Below are positions 3,491 to 36,638 of a stretch of 47,131 nucleotides of DNA, piece by piece. Positions within the stretch are counted from its first letter, which is position 1; each line of letters begins with the position of its first letter. Source of the stretch: Clostridiaceae bacterium (GTDB taxonomy: Bacteria; Bacillota; Clostridia; Acetivibrionales; Acetivibrionaceae). The position numbers and the translations under genes were made by a program. The notes under the pieces were generated by a model. It ran no database searches and was not told the DNA's origin. It worked only from the letters and a program-made list of their open reading frames with translations. The stretch is taken from positions 1 through 47,131 of the forward strand of contig JAAYPF010000205.1 in assembly GCA_012519925.1 (NCBI GenBank), written 5' to 3'.

Positions 3491-3664
3491 ATGAGCAGAC
3501 GTGGCGGTATGATGTCCGAAAGTCTTAAAGCTGAAATAGCTAAAGAATTGGGAGTGTATAATATCGTTGAAAATGAAGGCTGGGGTTCTGTTTCATCAAG
3601 AGATTGCGGAAATATTGTAAAGAAGGCTATAGAAATGGCCGAAAGAAATCTCAGTAATAGATAA
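3491..3664 (+). CDS. sspF: Small acid-soluble spore protein, SspF-like alpha/beta type
   Basis: Seen: 57 residues beginning MSRRGGMMSESLKAEIAKEL and continuing GVYNIVENEGWGSVSSRDCG. AAAGGAGG at 3474-3481 gives an ideal ribosome site. The body aligns by eye with Bacillus SspF (MGRRRG.MS...LAKDLG, GGWG.....RDAGNMVKRAIE). Known: alpha/beta-type SASPs coat forespore DNA, protect it from UV and chemicals, and are degraded by Gpr on germination. An AT-rich 8-bp hairpin (3451-3472) sits just before the ribosome site. A strong terminator follows, so the gene is monocistronic. It is too short to be found by a 60-residue cutoff and easy to miss. Confidence 0.93.
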   Translation: MSRRGGMMSESLKAEIAKELGVYNIVENEGWGSVSSRDCGNIVKKAIEMAERNLSNR

Positions 3665-3706: not shown

Positions 3707-3741
3707 TTATGCATTTCTTTAATATAGTTTGTTTCAATTCT

Positions 3742-3758
3742 ATTACAATTTCTTTACA
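3742..3758 (-). promoter_or_regulatory. Candidate WalR box upstream of the S-layer promoter
   Basis: Read on the minus strand, the site is TGTAAA-GAAAT-TGTAAT, an exact match to the WalR consensus TGTWAH-N5-TGTWAH known from Bacillus and Staphylococcus. Its right edge is 15 nt upstream of the -35 box at 3774, a position where OmpR-family activators often bind. The walRK genes lie 30 kb away in this window. Binding is an inference. Confidence 0.5.
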
Positions 3759-3773
3759 CTTGAATTCTAGATG

Positions 3774-3802
3774 TTGACTCACTGAAATGCCGATGATATA
3801 AT
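3774..3802 (+). promoter_or_regulatory. Sigma-A-type promoter of the first S-layer gene
   Basis: TTGACT (3774-3779), a 17-nt spacer, and TATAAT (3797-3802). This is close to ideal, and the spacing is optimal. The start site would fall near 3809, giving a leader of about 143 nt. Confidence 0.8.
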
Positions 3803-3808
3803 TAGTTT

Positions 3809-3951
3809 TGAATTCAAGATAGGTTAAGTGCGCCGGTCTTGAGCAAAATGCAATATAGGTCAGGTTAGACACAGAGGGATAAGGCGTAGCCTGGCTTTAA
3901 GTTTTAAGCCTGCTTCCCAAAAAAACAACAATACAAGGAGGATTTGAGAGT
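3809..3951 (+). promoter_or_regulatory. Long structured 5' leader of the S-layer mRNA
   Basis: The leader is richer in G and C than its surroundings. Its 3' half can fold as a compact three-way junction: GGGA (3876-3879)/TCCC (3915-3918) as the closing stem, AGGC (3882-3885)/GCCT (3889-3892) and GGCTT (3893-3897)/AAGCC (3906-3910) as arms. The ribosome site AAGGAGGA (about 3935-3942) lies downstream and free. I do not recognise a riboswitch class. Long stable leaders are common on highly expressed S-layer genes. Confidence 0.5.
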
Positions 3952-6900
3952 ATGAAGAATCTCAAAAAGATGTTGGCGTCACTAGTAGTAGTTGCTATGA
4001 TGGCATCTATGGCTTTAGTGCCTGCATTCGCTGCAACACTTAGCTATGAAAAAGAAGCAGAACAACTTAATAAAGTTGGTTTGTACTTGGGGATAAGCGA
4101 AACAGAGTTTATTCCTGATTTAGAAACACTTCTTGACAGACAAACTGGAGTAGTTATGCTTCTTAGAATGTTTGGACAAGAAGAAGAAGCAAAATTGCTT
4201 TCAGATGAAGAAGCAAACTCAATGCTTGCTAAATTCACAGATGCTGGAACAATAGCAGACTGGGCTAAAAAGCAAGTAGCATATGCAGTTGATAAGGGTG
4301 TTGTAAAAGGATATGCTGAAGATTCAACATTCAGACCATCAGCTGGATTGAACGGAAAAGCATATTGTTCATTGTTGCTCCAACAATTAGGTTATGATGG
4401 AGACTTTGATTACCATCAAGCAGCAACTAAATTAGCTCAAGTTGGTGGGTTAAATGCTTCACAAGCAGCATTATTCAACAGCGACGCTCAAATAAACAAG
4501 GACTCATTAGTAGGTATTTCCTACGGAGCATTACAAGCTAAAACTAAAGCAGATGGTAAGAAGCTTGTTAAATTATTGCTTGAGAACGAAGTTGTTAAAG
4601 AAGAAGATCTTAATGATGCTGAAATTCCTTACGCTGACATAACAGCAGTAGCTGAAATTGCTGACATTACAGTAGATGTAGGAGCTGAAGTTAAACTTCC
4701 TGAAACTGTTACAGCAACTTATGACAATGGAACTACAGCAGACGTAGCTGTTACTTGGCCTACAGTTGATACTTCAAGCGAAGGCGAACAAACAATTACT
4801 GGTACAATAGCTGATACTACAATAACTGCTTCAGTTAAAGTTATTGTTGTACCTGCTGAATTAAGAGTAACTGGTGAAGTATCTGGTAACCGTAAAGAAA
4901 TCATTCTTAACTTCAACAGAGCAGTTGAAGATGCTGACAAAGCAAAGAATGTAAATAATTACAGAATTAAGAAATATAAAGTGCAAAATGTAGACCTTTC
5001 AGCAGATAAAATGACAGCCACATTGCTTTTAGAAGATGGACAATTATTTAAGCAACAAGAAGATGTTACTGTAACTGTTGATAAAGATGTTGGACTTGAA
5101 GAAGACACAGATGTAGTAATTAAAAACATTAAGGACGTTACACCTCCTGAAGTTGAATCAGTAGTAGCAGTAGGAAACAGCCTTATTAAAGTAACATTTA
5201 CTGAGCCTGTACAAAACATTAGAAGTGTTACTAACTACACAATAGACGGTAAAGCTTTCCCTGCATCAAAAATTGATGTAGCAAAGAACTTAAAAGTAGT
5301 AAGTATTCATCTTAAAAACAAATTAGCTTCTGATACTCATACTTTAGTTGTAAAAGACAAAGTGGCTGACTATGCAGGATTCAAGATAGAAGATAATGAA
5401 ACTGAATTTACTGTTGTTGATGATAATGAAGCACCAACAGCAGAAATCGAAAGTGCAACTCAAACTAAGGTTGTTGTTAAGTTCAGCGAACCAGTTAAAA
5501 AGCCAGCTGACGACGATGTTGACACTAGCACAACTGCTAAGATTACTAAGAGAGAACTTGACGACGATGATATAACTTATACAATAGAGTTTGATCGTGA
5601 GAAGCCATTGCCAGCATCTGGCGGTAAATTAACAATGAAAAATGTTGAAGACTACAGTGGTAACAAGACTGATATAGCAATTGTTGTTGAACCTGATTAT
5701 GATTTAGAAAAACCTGAGTATGTTGGTTACAAAGTTGCTGAAAAGCAGACTGAAATCATAGTTGAGTTTAGCGAAGATATAATATATGAAGATGACAACT
5801 TTGAACTTGTTAATGCAGATGGCGATGATGTAATAATAAATGTTGAATATGAAAAGAATGATAAGGGCGATGATGTTAAGAACAAGGTTGTTATTACAAG
5901 AGCAAATGATGCTGCTTTTGCATCAGAAAAGCATAAGTTAACAATTGATGGTGTAAAGGATAATAGTCCTATAGAAAATGAGATTGACAAAATAACAGTT
6001 ACTATCGAAATTGATGATCAGGAGCCACCTAAAGTAGAGGAAGTAGCTATTGATTACTCTTATGATAGTTCAGCAAAAGAATATAAGAGCAAAATGTATA
6101 TCAGATTTAATGAAGATATTGACTTTGATACTGCAGTAGACTACAACAACTATACTTTCCAATTAGCAGGCGATAAGACAATATATGATCTTGATAAAGA
6201 TTTTGCAGATATTGATTTATTGTCAGATGAAAGAACTATATTAATTACTTTTGACAGAGAAGATACTTCTAAGAAAGACCAAAAAGCAGGTGTAGATTAT
6301 GTTGAAGTTGAGGACATAGTAAACATCCAAATTGATTCAGTTGAAGATACAGCTGGTAATGAAATGAAGAGGACTCCATGGGATGACTTTAAGGATTTAT
6401 CCGATGGTGAACTAATACCATTAGTTCTAAGTGCTAAAGTTACTGGTGAAAACACAATTGCTGTTAAGCTTGAGAACAAAATAAACGATAAGACTCTAAG
6501 TTCTGCTGATTTCAGCTTGTATGCGCTTGTTGATAGCAAGCAAGTTGGTATTGAAGCTTATGATGCTGAGTATAAGTATGATGACGATGAAATAATACTT
6601 TCAATCAATCAAGACTTAGCTGCAGATGGAACTTACAAGGGTGGTAATATCTACTTGTCCCTTATTGATCCAAAAGATATAGACACTGTTAACGCATATG
6701 ATCAGGTACTAGATTATCATGAAGAGTTTGAAGAACTTGTTGAAGACGGATATAATCCAACTATTGATTCAGTATCAGAAGCAGTATATGATAATAAAGG
6801 TACAAGTGATTATGCAAAAGCATATGGAAATGGAACTTATGCAGTACTTGAGTTAACAGAAGCATTATCTCTTCCAGAAGATCCAAAAGAAGAGATTGCT

Positions 6901-7215
6901 GATGTGTTAGCTGCACAGTTCTCTGTTAAGGTTGGAAGTGATGCTGTAGATAAAGTAATATATTATGCAGCACCAGTAGCAGACGATGAAAATACTACTA
7001 AAGACGAGTCTAAGCCTGCTAGATTAATAATAAAAGTTGTTGGCGATAAAGCAGCAGATGAGTTAGCTGGTAAATTCATTAAAGTTAGCTTTACTCCAGT
7101 GCCTAATAGTGCAGCAAATAAAGCAGCTGGATTGGTTATAGCTGATGACTCTGATGCAAAAAATCCTCTTCAAGAGAAAGGTGTAATTGAGAAGAAGATT
7201 TCATTAGTGAAATAA
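3952..7215 (+). CDS. S-layer protein with degenerate SLH domains and Ig-like repeats
   Basis: Seen: a 1087-residue acidic protein with a signal peptide (cleavage expected after AFA, residue 27). Three weak SLH-type repeats occupy about residues 31-215; the clearest contains ADWAKKQVAYAVDKGVVKGY and STFRPSAGLN. A Big_4-like domain follows at about 230-303. The rest is a series of Ig-like modules with recurring phrases (KVTFTEPVQ, VVVKFSEPV, IIVEFSED, MYIRFNEDI). Known: SLH modules anchor proteins to pyruvylated secondary wall polymer, and Ig-like repeats form the lattice body. Codon use is biased toward few codons (many GTT, GCA, GAA), consistent with very high expression. It has its own strong promoter, long leader and terminator. 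It is probably the main S-layer subunit. Its paralogue follows directly. Confidence 0.85.
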   Translation: MKNLKKMLASLVVVAMMASMALVPAFAATLSYEKEAEQLNKVGLYLGISETEFIPDLETLLDRQTGVVMLLRMFGQEEEAKLLSDEEANSMLAKFTDAGTIADWAKKQVAYAVDKGVVKGYAEDSTFRPSAGLNGKAYCSLLLQQLGYDGDFDYHQAATKLAQVGGLNASQAALFNSDAQINKDSLVGISYGALQAKTKADGKKLVKLLLENEVVKEEDLNDAEIPYADITAVAEIADITVDVGAEVKLPETVTATYDNGTTADVAVTWPTVDTSSEGEQTITGTIADTTITASVKVIVVPAELRVTGEVSGNRKEIILNFNRAVEDADKAKNVNNYRIKKYKVQNVDLSADKMTATLLLEDGQLFKQQEDVTVTVDKDVGLEEDTDVVIKNIKDVTPPEVESVVAVGNSLIKVTFTEPVQNIRSVTNYTIDGKAFPASKIDVAKNLKVVSIHLKNKLASDTHTLVVKDKVADYAGFKIEDNETEFTVVDDNEAPTAEIESATQTKVVVKFSEPVKKPADDDVDTSTTAKITKRELDDDDITYTIEFDREKPLPASGGKLTMKNVEDYSGNKTDIAIVVEPDYDLEKPEYVGYKVAEKQTEIIVEFSEDIIYEDDNFELVNADGDDVIINVEYEKNDKGDDVKNKVVITRANDAAFASEKHKLTIDGVKDNSPIENEIDKITVTIEIDDQEPPKVEEVAIDYSYDSSAKEYKSKMYIRFNEDIDFDTAVDYNNYTFQLAGDKTIYDLDKDFADIDLLSDERTILITFDREDTSKKDQKAGVDYVEVEDIVNIQIDSVEDTAGNEMKRTPWDDFKDLSDGELIPLVLSAKVTGENTIAVKLENKINDKTLSSADFSLYALVDSKQVGIEAYDAEYKYDDDEIILSINQDLAADGTYKGGNIYLSLIDPKDIDTVNAYDQVLDYHEEFEELVEDGYNPTIDSVSEAVYDNKGTSDYAKAYGNGTYAVLELTEALSLPEDPKEEIADVLAAQFSVKVGSDAVDKVIYYAAPVADDENTTKDESKPARLIIKVVGDKAADELAGKFIKVSFTPVPNSAANKAAGLVIADDSDAKNPLQEKGVIEKKISLVK

Positions 7216-7324: not shown

Positions 7325-10300
7325 ATGATAAGATTAAGAAAAGTATTTGCGGTATTGCTGACATTGGCAATAGTTTCATCTATTAATGTAATACCTGCTT
7401 CAGCAAGCACGTTTATATATGAGAAGGAGGCTAATGCACTTTATGAGCTTGACCTTTACAAGGGAATTAACGAATCCCGGTTTGATCCTGATTTGGCAAC
7501 AGCTCTAGACAGACAAACCGGAGTTGTTATGCTTCTTAGAATGTTTGGTCAGGAAGAGGAGGCTAAAAAGCTTACGAAGGAGAAGGCAAACTCAATATTA
7601 AATAAATTCAAGGATTCGGATTCGATTGCAGACTGGTCTAAAAAGCAGGTTGCCTATGCTGTAGATAAAGGATTTGTAAAAGGTTACTCTGAGGACTCAA
7701 CCTTCAGACCATCAACGGGTTTAAACGGTAAAGCTTATTGTTCATTAATTCTTCAGCAATTAGGTTATGATGGTGATTTTCAATATGATAAGGCTGCATC
7801 AAAATTAAGCGAAATAGGTGGTTTAACTCCTATTCAAGGTAATATGTTTAATAGCGATGCTACATTGATTAAAGATTCTTTAGTAGGTATTTCATATGGA
7901 GCATTGCAGGCTAAATACAATTCAGATGGTGAAAAATTAATTAAAGTACTAATTGACAAGGGAATTGTTTCAGCCAAAAAGGCTAAAGAATTGGGGTTTG
8001 AATATGCAAAGATCGTATCAGTAGAAGCGATTAATGATATAACAGTTAATATAGGAGATTCACCTAAATTACCCACTTTCGTAAAGGCTGAATATGATGA
8101 TGGAACTAAAGAAAATGTAAGTGTAAGCTGGCCATACGTTGATACGTCAAGAACTGGGGAGCAAATTATTTCTGGAACAATAGATGGTGCTTCAGTTAAA
8201 GCCAAAGTAAAGATAATAGTTGTTCCTGATGAATTAAGGGTAGAGGCTATTTCTTCGGGAAATCTTAAAGAAGTAATTATCGAATTCAGCAAACCTGTGG
8301 ATAATGAAGATGAAGCTAAAGATAAAAAGAACTATGACGTTGATGGAAATAGTGTAATAAATGCCGAACTTTCGGAGGACAGAATGACAGTAACACTACT
8401 TCTTAAAAATGCTATTAAGCAGCAATCTGATATTGAGGTTAGTGTTGATAAAAAGGTAGGACTAGATAAAGATGCTGTATTGTATATTGATAATGTAAAA
8501 GATGTTGATATTCCTGAAGTTGTTGATGTTGTTGCAGTGGGTAACGGTCTTGTAAAAGTTACCTTTAGTGAGCCGGTACAAAATGCTACAAATCTTTCGA
8601 GTTATGCAATTGATAAAAGGCTTTTTAGTGCAACACAACTGAGCTTGTCAGATAACGAGAAAACAATAAATATTAATTTGACTAAGCGTTTATCTTCTGG
8701 CTCCCATAAGCTAACTGTTAAAGATAAAATAAATGACTATGCAGGGTACATGGTTGAAGATAATGAAATAAGCTTTACAGTTGAAGATGATGACGAAGCA
8801 CCTACGGCTAAAATTAAGAGTGCCACCCAGACCAAAGTGGTGGTAAAGTTTAGTGAGGAAATTGCAAAGCCTGAATTGAGAAAAGTGGATACAAATGCTG
8901 GGGCAAAGGTGGAAAGCATTGAATTAGACAAGGATAATATGACCTTAACAATTTATTTTGATGTTGAGAATGCTTTACCCGCATCGGGATGTAATATAAT
9001 TATTGAAGACGTTAGTGATTTTAGTGGAAATTCAAAGGACATAAAACTTCCTGTGACACCAGATTATGATGTAACAAGACCTGAGTATGTTGGATATTCA
9101 ATAGAGAATCAAAGAGAAATAGTACTTGAATTCTCCGAAGAAGTATTCTCTAAGTATGGTAAATTCAAACTTACAGACAGCGATGATGATAGTATAGATT
9201 TGTCAAGTGCAGAGTATTATAGAAATGATGATGGTGAGCCTGTAAAGACAAAGTTAGTTATTAGGAGAGCAGATGGTGAGAAGTTCGAATCAGGTAAGTA
9301 TGAGCTGTTGATCCGCGAAGTTACAGATTTAAATCCTTTAAAGAATGAAATTATTGAAAAAACTGTAAACATAAATGTTGCAGACAACACTCCACCAATT
9401 ATTTCAAGCGTATATATTAATAATGATGATAATCAAGTCTTTATTAAGTTCAATGAAGATGTAGACGAAAATTCAGTTACAGAGTATTCAAATTATTACT
9501 ATATAGTTAATAGTATAGCAAGCAAACTAGAAAAGAATGCTATGAAGATAGAGTTATTGTCCGATGATCAAACAGTATGTATTACCTTCTCAAAGGATAA
9601 GGATGATTATAAGGACAAAGAGGCTGTGTCGGTAAGTGAGATTTCACGTATTCAGGTAGAAGGAGTTAAAGATACAAAAGGTAATGAGATGAGAGCACAA
9701 AGTGTTTCAAGTAAGGATTTTAAATCAGATAATAGTACTGCTCCGGAAATAATTTCTGCTGCTGTAACCGATAAAAACACAATAGTTTTGAAAATTAAGG
9801 GGTCAATAAATCCTGCTACATTAGAACCGGATGATTTTTATATTACAGCAGGAAAAAACGATAGAGGCCACGATATAGTGATAACAGCATGGGATGCATA
9901 CTATGACTCCGATAAGAGTGAAATTACATTATCTGTTAATGCAGATATTGAATCTAATGGTACCTTTAATGGAAAGTCTCTTTATTTGGGATTAGAAGAT
10001 AGAGAAGATGTAGATACAGAAAATACTTTTAAACAAAAATTAACTATAGCATCTCCAATTAAAGTAAATGAAGACTTTAAGCCAGTTGCTAAGTCAATAG
10101 CTTCTGCACAATACGAAAGAGGTGTAGGAACTCTAGTGTTCATTGAATTGTCGGAAAATTTGAGACTTAATAATGGAGATCAACTCAATCAAAATGATTC
10201 ACTACAATTTAGGGTTAAGATTGACGGTAAAACAGTAGATGCAAAAATATACTACTACCATGCCGAAGGTAAGGATAATAAGGATACTGATGTAGATGAA

Positions 10301-10447
10301 ACTTCTGCAAGATTCAAGTTTGTAATGGAGGAAAATTATAGAGGCGACCAAGTTCAAGTCATATTCTATAGAGCGTCTAAAGCTACAATCACAGATTATT
10401 CGGGTAATGCACTTGATGACTTTGATTTTAAACAGACGGTTGAGTAA
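7325..10447 (+). CDS. Second S-layer-type protein, paralogue of the upstream gene
   Basis: Seen: 1040 residues, a signal peptide (cleavage near ASA, residue 27), the same degenerate SLH triplet (TALDRQTGVVMLLRMFGQEE, ADWSKKQVAYAVDKGFVKGY), the same Big_4-like domain and the same Ig-like module order as its neighbour. Identity is high in the SLH part and falls toward the C-terminus, where the surface would be exposed. Codon use is less biased than in the first copy, suggesting lower expression. It has an AGAGGTAGAGG ribosome site but no visible promoter, so it may be transcribed by read-through of the 7254-7287 terminator. Role: probably a minor or alternative lattice subunit anchored to the wall. 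Functional difference from the first copy is unknown. Confidence 0.83.
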   Translation: MIRLRKVFAVLLTLAIVSSINVIPASASTFIYEKEANALYELDLYKGINESRFDPDLATALDRQTGVVMLLRMFGQEEEAKKLTKEKANSILNKFKDSDSIADWSKKQVAYAVDKGFVKGYSEDSTFRPSTGLNGKAYCSLILQQLGYDGDFQYDKAASKLSEIGGLTPIQGNMFNSDATLIKDSLVGISYGALQAKYNSDGEKLIKVLIDKGIVSAKKAKELGFEYAKIVSVEAINDITVNIGDSPKLPTFVKAEYDDGTKENVSVSWPYVDTSRTGEQIISGTIDGASVKAKVKIIVVPDELRVEAISSGNLKEVIIEFSKPVDNEDEAKDKKNYDVDGNSVINAELSEDRMTVTLLLKNAIKQQSDIEVSVDKKVGLDKDAVLYIDNVKDVDIPEVVDVVAVGNGLVKVTFSEPVQNATNLSSYAIDKRLFSATQLSLSDNEKTININLTKRLSSGSHKLTVKDKINDYAGYMVEDNEISFTVEDDDEAPTAKIKSATQTKVVVKFSEEIAKPELRKVDTNAGAKVESIELDKDNMTLTIYFDVENALPASGCNIIIEDVSDFSGNSKDIKLPVTPDYDVTRPEYVGYSIENQREIVLEFSEEVFSKYGKFKLTDSDDDSIDLSSAEYYRNDDGEPVKTKLVIRRADGEKFESGKYELLIREVTDLNPLKNEIIEKTVNINVADNTPPIISSVYINNDDNQVFIKFNEDVDENSVTEYSNYYYIVNSIASKLEKNAMKIELLSDDQTVCITFSKDKDDYKDKEAVSVSEISRIQVEGVKDTKGNEMRAQSVSSKDFKSDNSTAPEIISAAVTDKNTIVLKIKGSINPATLEPDDFYITAGKNDRGHDIVITAWDAYYDSDKSEITLSVNADIESNGTFNGKSLYLGLEDREDVDTENTFKQKLTIASPIKVNEDFKPVAKSIASAQYERGVGTLVFIELSENLRLNNGDQLNQNDSLQFRVKIDGKTVDAKIYYYHAEGKDNKDTDVDETSARFKFVMEENYRGDQVQVIFYRASKATITDYSGNALDDFDFKQTVE

Positions 10448-33617: not shown

Positions 33618-33925
33618 TATTAGCAGCCCCCCTGAACTAGAATTGTTTAATGCAAGAAAGCTTATGTAGAAAGAATTATGACAAACTTCTTAGTATATTA
33701 TAACACATTTTGGGATTAAATCAACATAATACATAAAATTTTACAAAAAAACGAGATCAAAATCACCTAATTCAATAAATTGGTTGTATTGTCTTAAAAT
33801 AAATATTCAATTTTGTAATATAAATGTTATAATAATATATGTTGTTTGTGTGAACTACAATGGCAGATATGCAAAATTTGTACAGATGCAATTATAACTT
33901 CCATAAATAAAAGGGGGGCTATTTT
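33618..33925. other. Divergent regulatory region between the Spo0E-like gene and walR
   Basis: This 308-bp AT-rich stretch separates divergent genes. It holds a weak sigma-A-type promoter for walR (TTCAAT 33806-33811, 16-nt spacer, TATAAT 33828-33833) and the candidate WalR box below. No other gene or structure stands out. Confidence 0.5.
33814..33830 (+). promoter_or_regulatory. Candidate WalR box at the walR promoter
   Basis: TGTAAT-ATAAA-TGTTAT matches TGTWAH-N5-TGTWAH exactly. Its right half overlaps the -10 element TATAAT (33828-33833), a position that would block polymerase, so autorepression is the natural guess. It is about 95 nt before the walR start codon. Confidence 0.5.
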
Positions 33926-34621
33926 GTGAGCGGAAAGATACTAATTGTTGATGATGAGAAAAACATAGTTGATATTTTAAAATTTAATTTAGCTAAAGAA
34001 GGCTTTCAAACTGTTGAAGCGAATGATGGTGAGCAGGCAATAGAATATGCTTTAAAAGAAAAGCCTGATCTTATCCTTCTTGACATAATGTTACCAAAGA
34101 TGGATGGTTTTACAGTATGCCGTAAACTTAGACAAACTATCTCTACTCCTATAATTATGATAACAGCAAAGGAGGAAGAGGTTGATAAGGTTTTAGGTCT
34201 TGAATTGGGTGCGGATGATTACATTACTAAACCTTTTAGTACTAGAGAGTTAATGGCCAGGGTCAAGGCAAATCTTAGGAGGGTTTCAACGGAAAATGCC
34301 GCAACTAAAGAGACAAACTTATTAAGATGCGGAAATCTAGAGATTGATATAGAAAGATATGAAGTTAAAAGGGATGATCAGGTTTTAGAGCTTACTTTAA
34401 GAGAGTTTGAACTGGTCAAATTTCTAGCACTTCAGCAAGGGCAAATATTTTCAAGAGAAAGCTTATTGGAAAAAGTGTGGGGTTATGAATATTATGGTGA
34501 TGTACGTACTGTGGATGTTACAGTCAGAAGGCTTAGAGAAAAGGTAGAGACCGACCCTAGTAATCCATGTTATATTATGACTAAAAGAGGCGTAGGGTAT
34601 TATTTTAATAAAGTTAGTTAA
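33926..34621 (+). CDS. walR: WalR (YycF) response regulator
   Basis: Seen: 231 residues with a GTG start supported by AAGGGGGG. The receiver domain (1-118) has the acidic pair at Asp9/10, phospho-acceptor Asp53 (LILLDIMLP), Thr (MITAKE) and Lys (DYITKPF). An OmpR-type winged helix fills residues about 130-230 (TLREFELVKFLALQQGQIFS, VDVTVRRLREKVE). Known: WalR is the conserved, usually essential controller of wall hydrolases and wall metabolism in Firmicutes. PhoP is very similar, but the following walK-walH-walI-walJ order identifies this as the Wal system. It is first in its operon. Confidence 0.95.
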   Translation: MSGKILIVDDEKNIVDILKFNLAKEGFQTVEANDGEQAIEYALKEKPDLILLDIMLPKMDGFTVCRKLRQTISTPIIMITAKEEEVDKVLGLELGADDYITKPFSTRELMARVKANLRRVSTENAATKETNLLRCGNLEIDIERYEVKRDDQVLELTLREFELVKFLALQQGQIFSRESLLEKVWGYEYYGDVRTVDVTVRRLREKVETDPSNPCYIMTKRGVGYYFNKVS

Positions 34622-34709: not shown

Positions 34710-36533
34710 ATGTTTTTTAGGAAACTACAATTTTTAAGAAGTTTACAATGGAGACTCGTTGTTATTTTTGTTCTTGTATCACTTGCATTAATGATTACAG
34801 TGAGCATTTCACTAAACTATTTTATGGAAGCAGTATACTATGAAGACTTTAAAAATAGGATAGATAAAGGTTTTGAAAGCTGGGGTATTGGTGATAATCC
34901 TACAGGAAGCGAAATAATTGGGGATCTAAAGGGTAATTATAGTGATATTAGTCTCTTTATGGTGAGAGACTATGTTACTTATGCAGTAATTGATAAGCGT
35001 TCAAATGATATATTATACTCAAGTGACAATTTATTTGATGAAGATACAGATAAGTTTATTGAAGAAATATTAAATTCAAAGAATTTTTTATCTGCACTTG
35101 CAGGAAAAGACGTAAATGAAGGAAGAGCCATTCATAGTAATGACCGGGTATTCTTTGATTATGCTCGGGGCAAAGGTAATTATATATTATATTTTAGATT
35201 TTATAAAGATGAGTGGGGAGTTGTAATAAACAGCTTTAATAACATTATTCAAAACGCATTTGTTATTGCAGTTATTTTATCTCTTATTTTTGGATACCTG
35301 CTATCAAAGACAATAACCGTACCTATAGTAAATTTGATGCACAAAGCGAGAAATATTGCTCAAGGGGATTTTACTCAGATGGCAGAAGTAAAATCAGAGG
35401 ATGAGATAGGCAAGCTTACTAGAACTTTTAACTATATGGCTAAAGAGCTTAAAAACACACTAAATGAAATTTCCAAAGAGAAGAATAAGATAGAGACTAT
35501 ACTAAACTATATGACCGATGGCGTAATAGCTTTTAATATAGATGGGGAAGTGGTCCATGCCAATCCGGCTTCAAAGCTTATGCTTGGTTTGGATGAATTT
35601 AATATGAATTTTAATGAATTTTCAAGTAGGTTTGATTTAGGTATAACAATAGAAGAGATGCTCTACCTTGAAATATTCAGTACAAAAGAGGCAAACCTGA
35701 GCTTTGACAATAAATATATTCAGATATATTTTGCATTATCAACTGATGAACAAAGGAAAGCAGAAGGTATTATTGCGGTTTTACATGATATTACAGTCCA
35801 GCAAAAGCTGGATAATATGAGACGCGAATTTGTTGCAAATGTTTCGCACGAGCTTAGAACACCTTTGACCTCAATTAAAAGCTACTCAGAGACTCTGATG
35901 GATGGTGCACTTGACGATCCAGAAACAGCACATAGGTTTCTTGAAGTTATAAATTCTGAGGCTGATAGAATGACAAGACTGGTTAAAGATTTGCTACAAC
36001 TTTCTAGATTGGAAAATGAGCAATTACAGTGGAATATTCAGAGTTTTAGCTTTGATAGCCTTATAAGGAGCTCAGTAGAAAAGATTGAACTATCGGCAAA
36101 AGAAAAGGGACAAATTATAGAGTGTTTTTCAATAGGTGATAAACCGCAAGTCTTAGCGGATAAAGATAGAATTGAGCAAGTTATACTTAATGTGCTTACT
36201 AATGCAATCAAATACACTCCTGAAGGGGGCAAAATTGTTGTATATGTAGGAAAGATGTATAGCGATGCCTATGTAAAAGTTGTCGATTCGGGCATAGGAA
36301 TACCTGAAGAGGATATTAAGAGGGTGTTTGAAAGATTTTATAGAGTGGACAAAGCCCGTTCTCGAGAAATGGGAGGAACTGGGCTTGGACTATCTATAGC
36401 TAAGGAAATAGTTGAGGCTCACAAGGGGAGTATTTCAATTACAAGCCAACTTGGCAAAGGTACTGAAGTGACTGTAAGATTGCCTATATATTATGACGAA
36501 CAAGCTTCAAAAGAAGATGTAATTGAATCTTAA
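34710..36533 (+). CDS. walK: WalK (YycG) sensor histidine kinase
   Basis: Seen: 607 residues. Membrane helix about 13-35, an extracytoplasmic domain about 36-180, second helix about 183-205, HAMP about 205-257, PAS-like about 262-370, then the HisKA box VSHELRTPLTSIKSYSETLM with His380. The ATPase part has NVLTNAIKYTPEGG (N box), VDSGIGIPEED (G1) and GGTGLGLSIAKEIVEAHKG (G2). This domain order is that of WalK from Bacillus and Staphylococcus. Known: it phosphorylates WalR in response to wall precursor or hydrolase state and is restrained by WalH and WalI through the membrane helices. The GAGGGCGG before the ATG can be sequestered in a hairpin. Confidence 0.95.
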   Translation: MFFRKLQFLRSLQWRLVVIFVLVSLALMITVSISLNYFMEAVYYEDFKNRIDKGFESWGIGDNPTGSEIIGDLKGNYSDISLFMVRDYVTYAVIDKRSNDILYSSDNLFDEDTDKFIEEILNSKNFLSALAGKDVNEGRAIHSNDRVFFDYARGKGNYILYFRFYKDEWGVVINSFNNIIQNAFVIAVILSLIFGYLLSKTITVPIVNLMHKARNIAQGDFTQMAEVKSEDEIGKLTRTFNYMAKELKNTLNEISKEKNKIETILNYMTDGVIAFNIDGEVVHANPASKLMLGLDEFNMNFNEFSSRFDLGITIEEMLYLEIFSTKEANLSFDNKYIQIYFALSTDEQRKAEGIIAVLHDITVQQKLDNMRREFVANVSHELRTPLTSIKSYSETLMDGALDDPETAHRFLEVINSEADRMTRLVKDLLQLSRLENEQLQWNIQSFSFDSLIRSSVEKIELSAKEKGQIIECFSIGDKPQVLADKDRIEQVILNVLTNAIKYTPEGGKIVVYVGKMYSDAYVKVVDSGIGIPEEDIKRVFERFYRVDKARSREMGGTGLGLSIAKEIVEAHKGSISITSQLGKGTEVTVRLPIYYDEQASKEDVIES

Positions 36534-36539
36534 ATGTCG

Positions 36540-36556
36540 TGTAACAATCTTGTAAC
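36540..36556 (+). promoter_or_regulatory. Candidate WalR box after walK
   Basis: TGTAAC-AATCT-TGTAAC is an exact match, and a perfect direct repeat, for the WalR consensus. It lies 7 nt after the walK stop, before the unknown secreted protein and walH-walI. An AT-rich stretch with TATAAT (36571-36576 region) is downstream, so a WalR-controlled internal promoter is possible. Confidence 0.5.
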
Positions 36557-36638
36557 ATAATTAATATATAATATATTATATGATATTGGGGTTAAAAATT
36601 TTAAGCATAATATTGCTTATAAAAAGGGTGGATGTTAA

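Follow-up and report, generated by a model that had tools for sequence, protein, structure and literature searches.

Cells produce S-layer protein in very large quantities, and its output has to keep pace with growth of the wall that bears it. The S-layer locus studied here raises the question of whether the essential wall-sensing system WalRK controls this output directly. In the window (the whole stretch of DNA analyzed, 47,131 nucleotides), a first-pass annotation had placed a WalR consensus box ahead of the main S-layer promoter. The region contains the following features.

3731..3758, minus strand: WalR-type array; half-sites TGTAAA (3753-3758), TGTAAT (3742-3747), and a weaker TGAAAC (3731-3736), with an 11-nt period
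3774..3802, plus strand: S-layer promoter TTGACT-N17-TATAAT; -35 at 3774-3779, -10 at 3797-3802, extended -10 TG
3952..7215, plus strand: S-layer protein gene; 1,087 amino acids, SLH and Ig-like domains, orthologues identified by protein similarity
7325..10447, plus strand: second, tandem S-layer-type gene; 1,040 amino acids, paralogue of the 3952..7215 gene

The first-pass annotation had claimed an exact WalR consensus (minus strand, 3742-3758) and, 15 nt beyond it, a strong promoter; both were confirmed. Box TGTAAAGAAATTGTAAT at 3742-3758 (minus strand) is an exact match to the pattern TGTWAH-N5-TGTWAH. It is separated by 15 nt from the -35 of a promoter that matches the consensus at 11 of 12 positions, has a TG preceding its -10, and is the best promoter of the region. 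The two half-sites described earlier are indeed present, but the third, GTTTCA at 3731-3736, had been missed; viewed on the plus strand, the array consists of GTTTCA (3731), ATTACA (3742), and TTTACA (3753), three half-sites with an 11-nt period. If transcription starts about 7 nt past the -10, the putative center of the array (that of the two strong half-sites) would lie at about -59. The orthologue family of the 3952..7215 gene probably includes Cthe_2348, which we take to be the locus tag of an Acetivibrio thermocellum S-layer protein that has been detected in membranes (PMC3039559). Neither a box nor a leader of its own was found for the tandem gene in searches with the box-promoter pattern and the leader covariance model. 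Directly upstream of the S-layer promoter lies a small gene (3491-3664; MSRRGGMMSESLKAEIAKELGVYNIVENEGWGSVSS...) that, by eye, looks like a small acid-soluble spore protein gene.

Could the box have arisen by chance because the DNA is AT-rich, or be no more than an A+T-rich upstream element that no specific regulator recognizes? The window contains four matches to TGTWAH-N5-TGTWAH, which represent three sites since the box at 36540-36557 matches on both strands. The expected number was 1.02, in agreement with the earlier estimate of about one chance match per window, and four matches were reached in 1 of 100 shuffles. The first-pass annotation had also suggested a scan of the whole genome with this pattern. 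That scan revealed no enrichment: the window's genome (G000; 3.9 Mb, 253 contigs) has 64 matches (32 + 32), compared with 62 (29 + 33) for the reversed pattern. This equality is what speaks for a chance match, and because of it the plain consensus alone is no evidence. By crude gene calls, 27 of 60 matches in the genome were intergenic, and the few proteins scanned downstream of such matches included one SLH protein (L257), one Cu_amine_oxidN1 protein (L260), and no recognized hydrolase. The L257 box, TGTAATTGATTTGTAAC at L257:1235-1251, lies about 100 nt before this further SLH-domain protein of the same genome and has the orientation of the array downstream of walK described below. The window's genome also has a second TTACA-N6-TTACA repeat with a TGTTGAC promoter (L141; G000:C178:20368-20402, minus strand), which precedes a small Spo0E-like reading frame near a RodA-like gene (both named by eye) and has no counterpart among the pattern matches of the relatives.

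Conservation upstream of orthologous S-layer genes, which the first-pass annotation had named as a check, places the S-layer box beyond chance. In the window's family (f1; genomes G000 to G013), protein similarity identified a strong S-layer orthologue in 12 of 14 genomes, and the box is present in all 12, as TTACA-N6-TTACA-N10-16-TGTTGAC with the TTACA repeats 206 to 212 nt ahead of the start codon. Neither a strong S-layer orthologue nor the box pattern was found in G011 (55% complete) and G012. The box-plus-TGTTGAC pattern occurs in 44 of the 58 genomes of the order, mostly as a single match (0 for the reversed control), and in 40 of 391 genomes of the class, other families included, where some matches precede unrelated genes. 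Matches to a pattern that includes the box are uninformative about its invariance; for this reason, the leader RNA 3′ of the -10 was used to build a covariance model. An exact [ATG]TWACA-N5-[ATG]TWACA was present within 110 nt upstream of 61 of 61 leaders found by this box-free model, where 0.08 was expected from composition shuffles. The training leaders had first been gathered via the box pattern, so independence from the box is complete only for the 20 of 61 leaders that were new, having been missed by that pattern; all 20 carry the box.

The geometry of these promoters is nearly constant. The full promoter was recognized at 59 of the 61 leaders; the gap from box to -35 was 15 nt in 58 of them and 14 nt in one (9 to 22 nt were permitted), and the spacer between -35 and -10 was 17 nt in 57. 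In the leader-derived promoters, the near-invariant positions relative to the -35 are -31 to -27 and -20 to -16. The third half-site (TTTCA, -42 to -38) is conserved but weaker than the other two, and the sequence upstream of it is not conserved in the same promoter set. With the box at every leader, a constant gap, and two near-invariant half-sites 11 nt apart, a chance match or an A+T-rich element without a specific regulator becomes extremely improbable. The two near-invariant 11-nt half-sites likewise rule out a SigA-only or UP-element reading.

Two further groups of matches were observed. In three genomes of family f67 (L192, L193, and L194), box and promoter stand before a conserved small membrane protein (MYSTMQSVTSLIVIVVSFVC...), possibly a further target of the regulator. 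In two f72 genomes (L195 and L196), nearly identical sequences have the triple array TTACA-N6-TTACA-N6-TTACA, followed by a TGTTGAC promoter and then by a short reading frame.

The walRK locus lies in the same window.

33814..33833, plus strand: consensus match upstream of walR; box at 33814-33830, second half-site overlapping the extended -10 TGTTATAAT
33926..34621, plus strand: walR (yycF) response regulator gene; NCBIfam NF040534 equivalog (344 bits, cut-off 340), WalR clade in the tree
34710..36533, plus strand: walK sensor kinase gene; best match WalK, under its strict cut-off, positioned 3′ of walR
36518..36572, plus strand: walK-downstream WalR array fronting the next genes; half-sites at 36518, 36529, 36540, and 36551 (11-nt period), -10 TATAAT at 36567-36572

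This region also encodes YycI, a MurA-type enzyme, and, at the position expected for YycJ, a metallo-beta-lactamase-fold protein. Among named records, those closest to this WalR by similarity are from Acetivibrio mesophilus and Herbivorax sp. Both of the additional walRK boxes claimed earlier are present, but only one is conserved. Among 65 walRK loci from many families, 35 had the exact box downstream of walK (0.27 expected), with the consensus layout TGTAAY-N5-NTTAAA-N5-TGTAAY-N5-TGTAAY and, in many loci, a -10 about 10 nt further on. The box upstream of walR, in contrast, was found in 1 of 65 loci versus 0.22 expected; we judge the match at 33814 to be fortuitous and rejected it as an autoregulatory walR site. 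Conservation of the walK-downstream box thus links walRK to this half-site and its 11-nt period.

Which regulator would bind the S-layer array? A tree was constructed from 42 OmpR-type response regulators of 11 genomes, some of which contributed partial sets (10 regulators were collected from G000, 1 from G212, 2 from G352, and 3 from G420). The WalR clade (support 100/97) was the only OmpR-type clade present in all 11 genomes, with one member in each, and WalR is nearly universal. The S-layer box is present in 9 of the 11 genomes; the box pattern was not found in G116 and G167, both of which are in the tree only as relatives of G212. In G212, where an SLH gene has the box, WalR was the sole OmpR-type regulator found, in a genome that is 92% complete, so that a second regulator may be missing. 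We therefore weighed WalR against another OmpR/PhoB-family regulator of similar direct-repeat specificity, for example, one like PhoP or PhoB. In Bacillus subtilis, PhoP boxes are direct repeats of the TTWACA type. The coding-strand repeats of the array, TTWACA-N5-TTWACA, resemble them, and with ten OmpR-type regulators the window's genome offers other candidates. Against this, no OmpR-type clade other than WalR, PhoP-like or otherwise, was common to the 11 genomes in the tree, no other such regulator was found in G212, and walRK itself has conserved copies of these half-sites. We consider a different regulator unlikely.

Taken together, these data suggest with good likelihood that the S-layer promoter contains a conserved operator of the OmpR/PhoB family of regulators, for which WalR (YycF) is the most likely candidate; in phosphorylated form, WalR would bind there and activate. 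For direct WalR control of the S-layer, as first proposed, the conserved box and the link between motif and walRK speak in favor and the unconserved box upstream of walR speaks against; WalR as the protein bound at the S-layer array is a prediction from sequence. Also on the side of doubt are the lack of enrichment of the consensus across the genome, the other intergenic matches, which do not clearly belong to cell wall hydrolase genes, and the orientation of the array, opposite to that downstream of walK.

The direction of control was considered separately. In Staphylococcus aureus, activation is associated with WalR sites that lie upstream of the -35 and repression with those located between the -35 and -10 or downstream of them, and orientation is irrelevant (PMC10746227). 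WalR might instead bind the S-layer array and repress, or merely buffer, a promoter that is intrinsically strong. The hexamers of the S-layer promoter are indeed near consensus, and the array has the opposite orientation to the walK-downstream array. However, the S. aureus data show activation from upstream of the -35 in either orientation (PMC10746227), and the constant 15-nt gap fits contact with RNA polymerase, which leaves repression or buffering rather improbable. Since the box is upstream of the -35, as in the activated S. aureus promoters, we infer that activation by WalR is the best reading.

The RNA that served to find these promoters has conserved structure of its own.

3814..3842, plus strand: leader hairpin P1; TCAAGA 3814-3819 with TCTTGA 3837-3842
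3857..3897, plus strand: leader helix P2; 3857-3867 with 3887-3897
3876..3918, plus strand: pseudoknot helix P3; 3876-3879 with 3915-3918 and 3882-3885 with 3908-3911, its 5′ half in the P2 loop
3935..3966, plus strand: RBS AAGGAGG and start-codon hairpin; TTTGAGA 3943-3949 with TCTCAAA 3960-3966, ATG in the loop

P1 was paired in 94.7 to 95.5% of cells and showed compensatory changes (folding z, -2.31). P2 had compensatory changes at 10 of 11 pairs (z, -2.68), and P3, whose two segments were paired in 74.7% and 88.5% of cells, had them at 4 of 8; near-perfect P3 versions of 8 to 10 bp occur in several families, e.g., GGAAGCAGG/CCTGCTTCC. For P1, P2, and P3 together, 90.4% of cells were paired and 19 of 25 pairs had compensatory changes, in a MAFFT alignment that was not fitted to the structure. 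The observed values were reached in 0 of 500 shuffles, and pairing fell to 50 to 54% when the partners were moved by one column. Because shuffles lose relatedness, the weight falls on this one-column shift and on the variety of pair types in P2. Mutual information over the whole leader alignment was dominated by shared ancestry and was set aside for counts on the named structure. An alignment-free pseudoknot search scored above 15 shuffles in 31 of 60 leaders, weak support because the helices were not always the same. The start-codon hairpin (3943-3966; 7 bp) had a folding z of only -1.27 and no compensatory change in a longer leader alignment, and it is thus not proven by covariation. As DNA, the perfect 7-bp inverted repeat TTTGAGA/TCTCAAA around the start codon is kept in most relatives.

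Within the order, 45 of 58 genomes contained the leader once or twice according to the model, as did 37 of the 391 genomes in the class. Wherever the downstream frame was readable, the leaders examined precede MKNLKK-type S-layer/SLH genes; three end at contig ends. In Rfam 15, neither the leader of the window nor those of eight relatives had a match above the gathering score.

On the reading we favor, the half-sites, repeated every 11 nt at about -50 to -79, would be occupied by phosphorylated WalR, which from this position ahead of the -35 would increase transcription from the near-consensus sigma-A promoter. S-layer output would thereby be linked to the cell wall growth signal read by WalK. 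The transcript would open with the structured leader, hairpin P1 and then the P2/P3 pseudoknot, and in the initiation region the start codon may be enclosed by a hairpin. Leader and initiation region probably serve to stabilize the mRNA or to tune its translation. A broader proposal, plausible but held tentatively, is that many families of Clostridia control their S-layer genes by two layers that are passed on together: a WalR operator at a nearly fixed distance from the promoter and an uncatalogued pseudoknotted leader, possibly a feedback or stability element, on what would be among the most abundant mRNAs of the cell. If WalR does act here, the operator is a direct link from the essential wall-sensing system to S-layer synthesis, with the conserved leader RNA, unlisted in Rfam, as a second layer of control. 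Promoter and leader together are a candidate strong expression part for Acetivibrio and relatives.

The S-layer array shares its half-site and 11-nt period with the known WalR boxes of B. subtilis (TGTWAH-N5-TGTWAH) and S. aureus (TGTHH-N6-WGTNDD). It differs from them in being reversed, in having an extra, weaker half-site, in its nearly constant distance of 15 nt to the -35, and in the gene it serves, which encodes an S-layer protein and not an autolysin. The B. subtilis PhoP box and the Escherichia coli Pho box are likewise direct repeats with an 11-nt period, bound by OmpR/PhoB-family regulators; their repeat layout is that of the S-layer array, while regulator and signal differ. For the leader, the comparison is with the SLH motif RNA, described as a riboswitch candidate before SLH-domain genes in Synergistaceae, Clostridia, and Negativicutes, with about 60% of 80 examples upstream of SLH genes (PMC6429828). 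Both RNAs are structured and upstream of SLH-domain genes, and, compared by published description, they may or may not be identical.

A link between WalR and the S-layer, which the first-pass annotation did not regard as established, has in fact been reported: in Clostridioides difficile, WalR overexpression raised six S-layer protein (cwp) genes (PMC9210968), and the S-layer has been suggested as a WalRK target in Bacillus anthracis (as related in PMC9210968). WalR control of the S-layer is therefore not wholly new. What appears new, as far as the searchable literature shows, is the conserved operator at SLH-type S-layer promoters, with its near-constant geometry and its covarying, pseudoknotted leader. 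The C. difficile evidence is from overexpression and knockdown profiling, whereas the genes here are SLH-type S-layer genes with a conserved operator. In both organisms, and in the suggested B. anthracis target, WalRK output would reach S-layer protein genes, and a WalR operator of the kind proposed here would explain a coordination that has so far been merely suggested by profiling in C. difficile.
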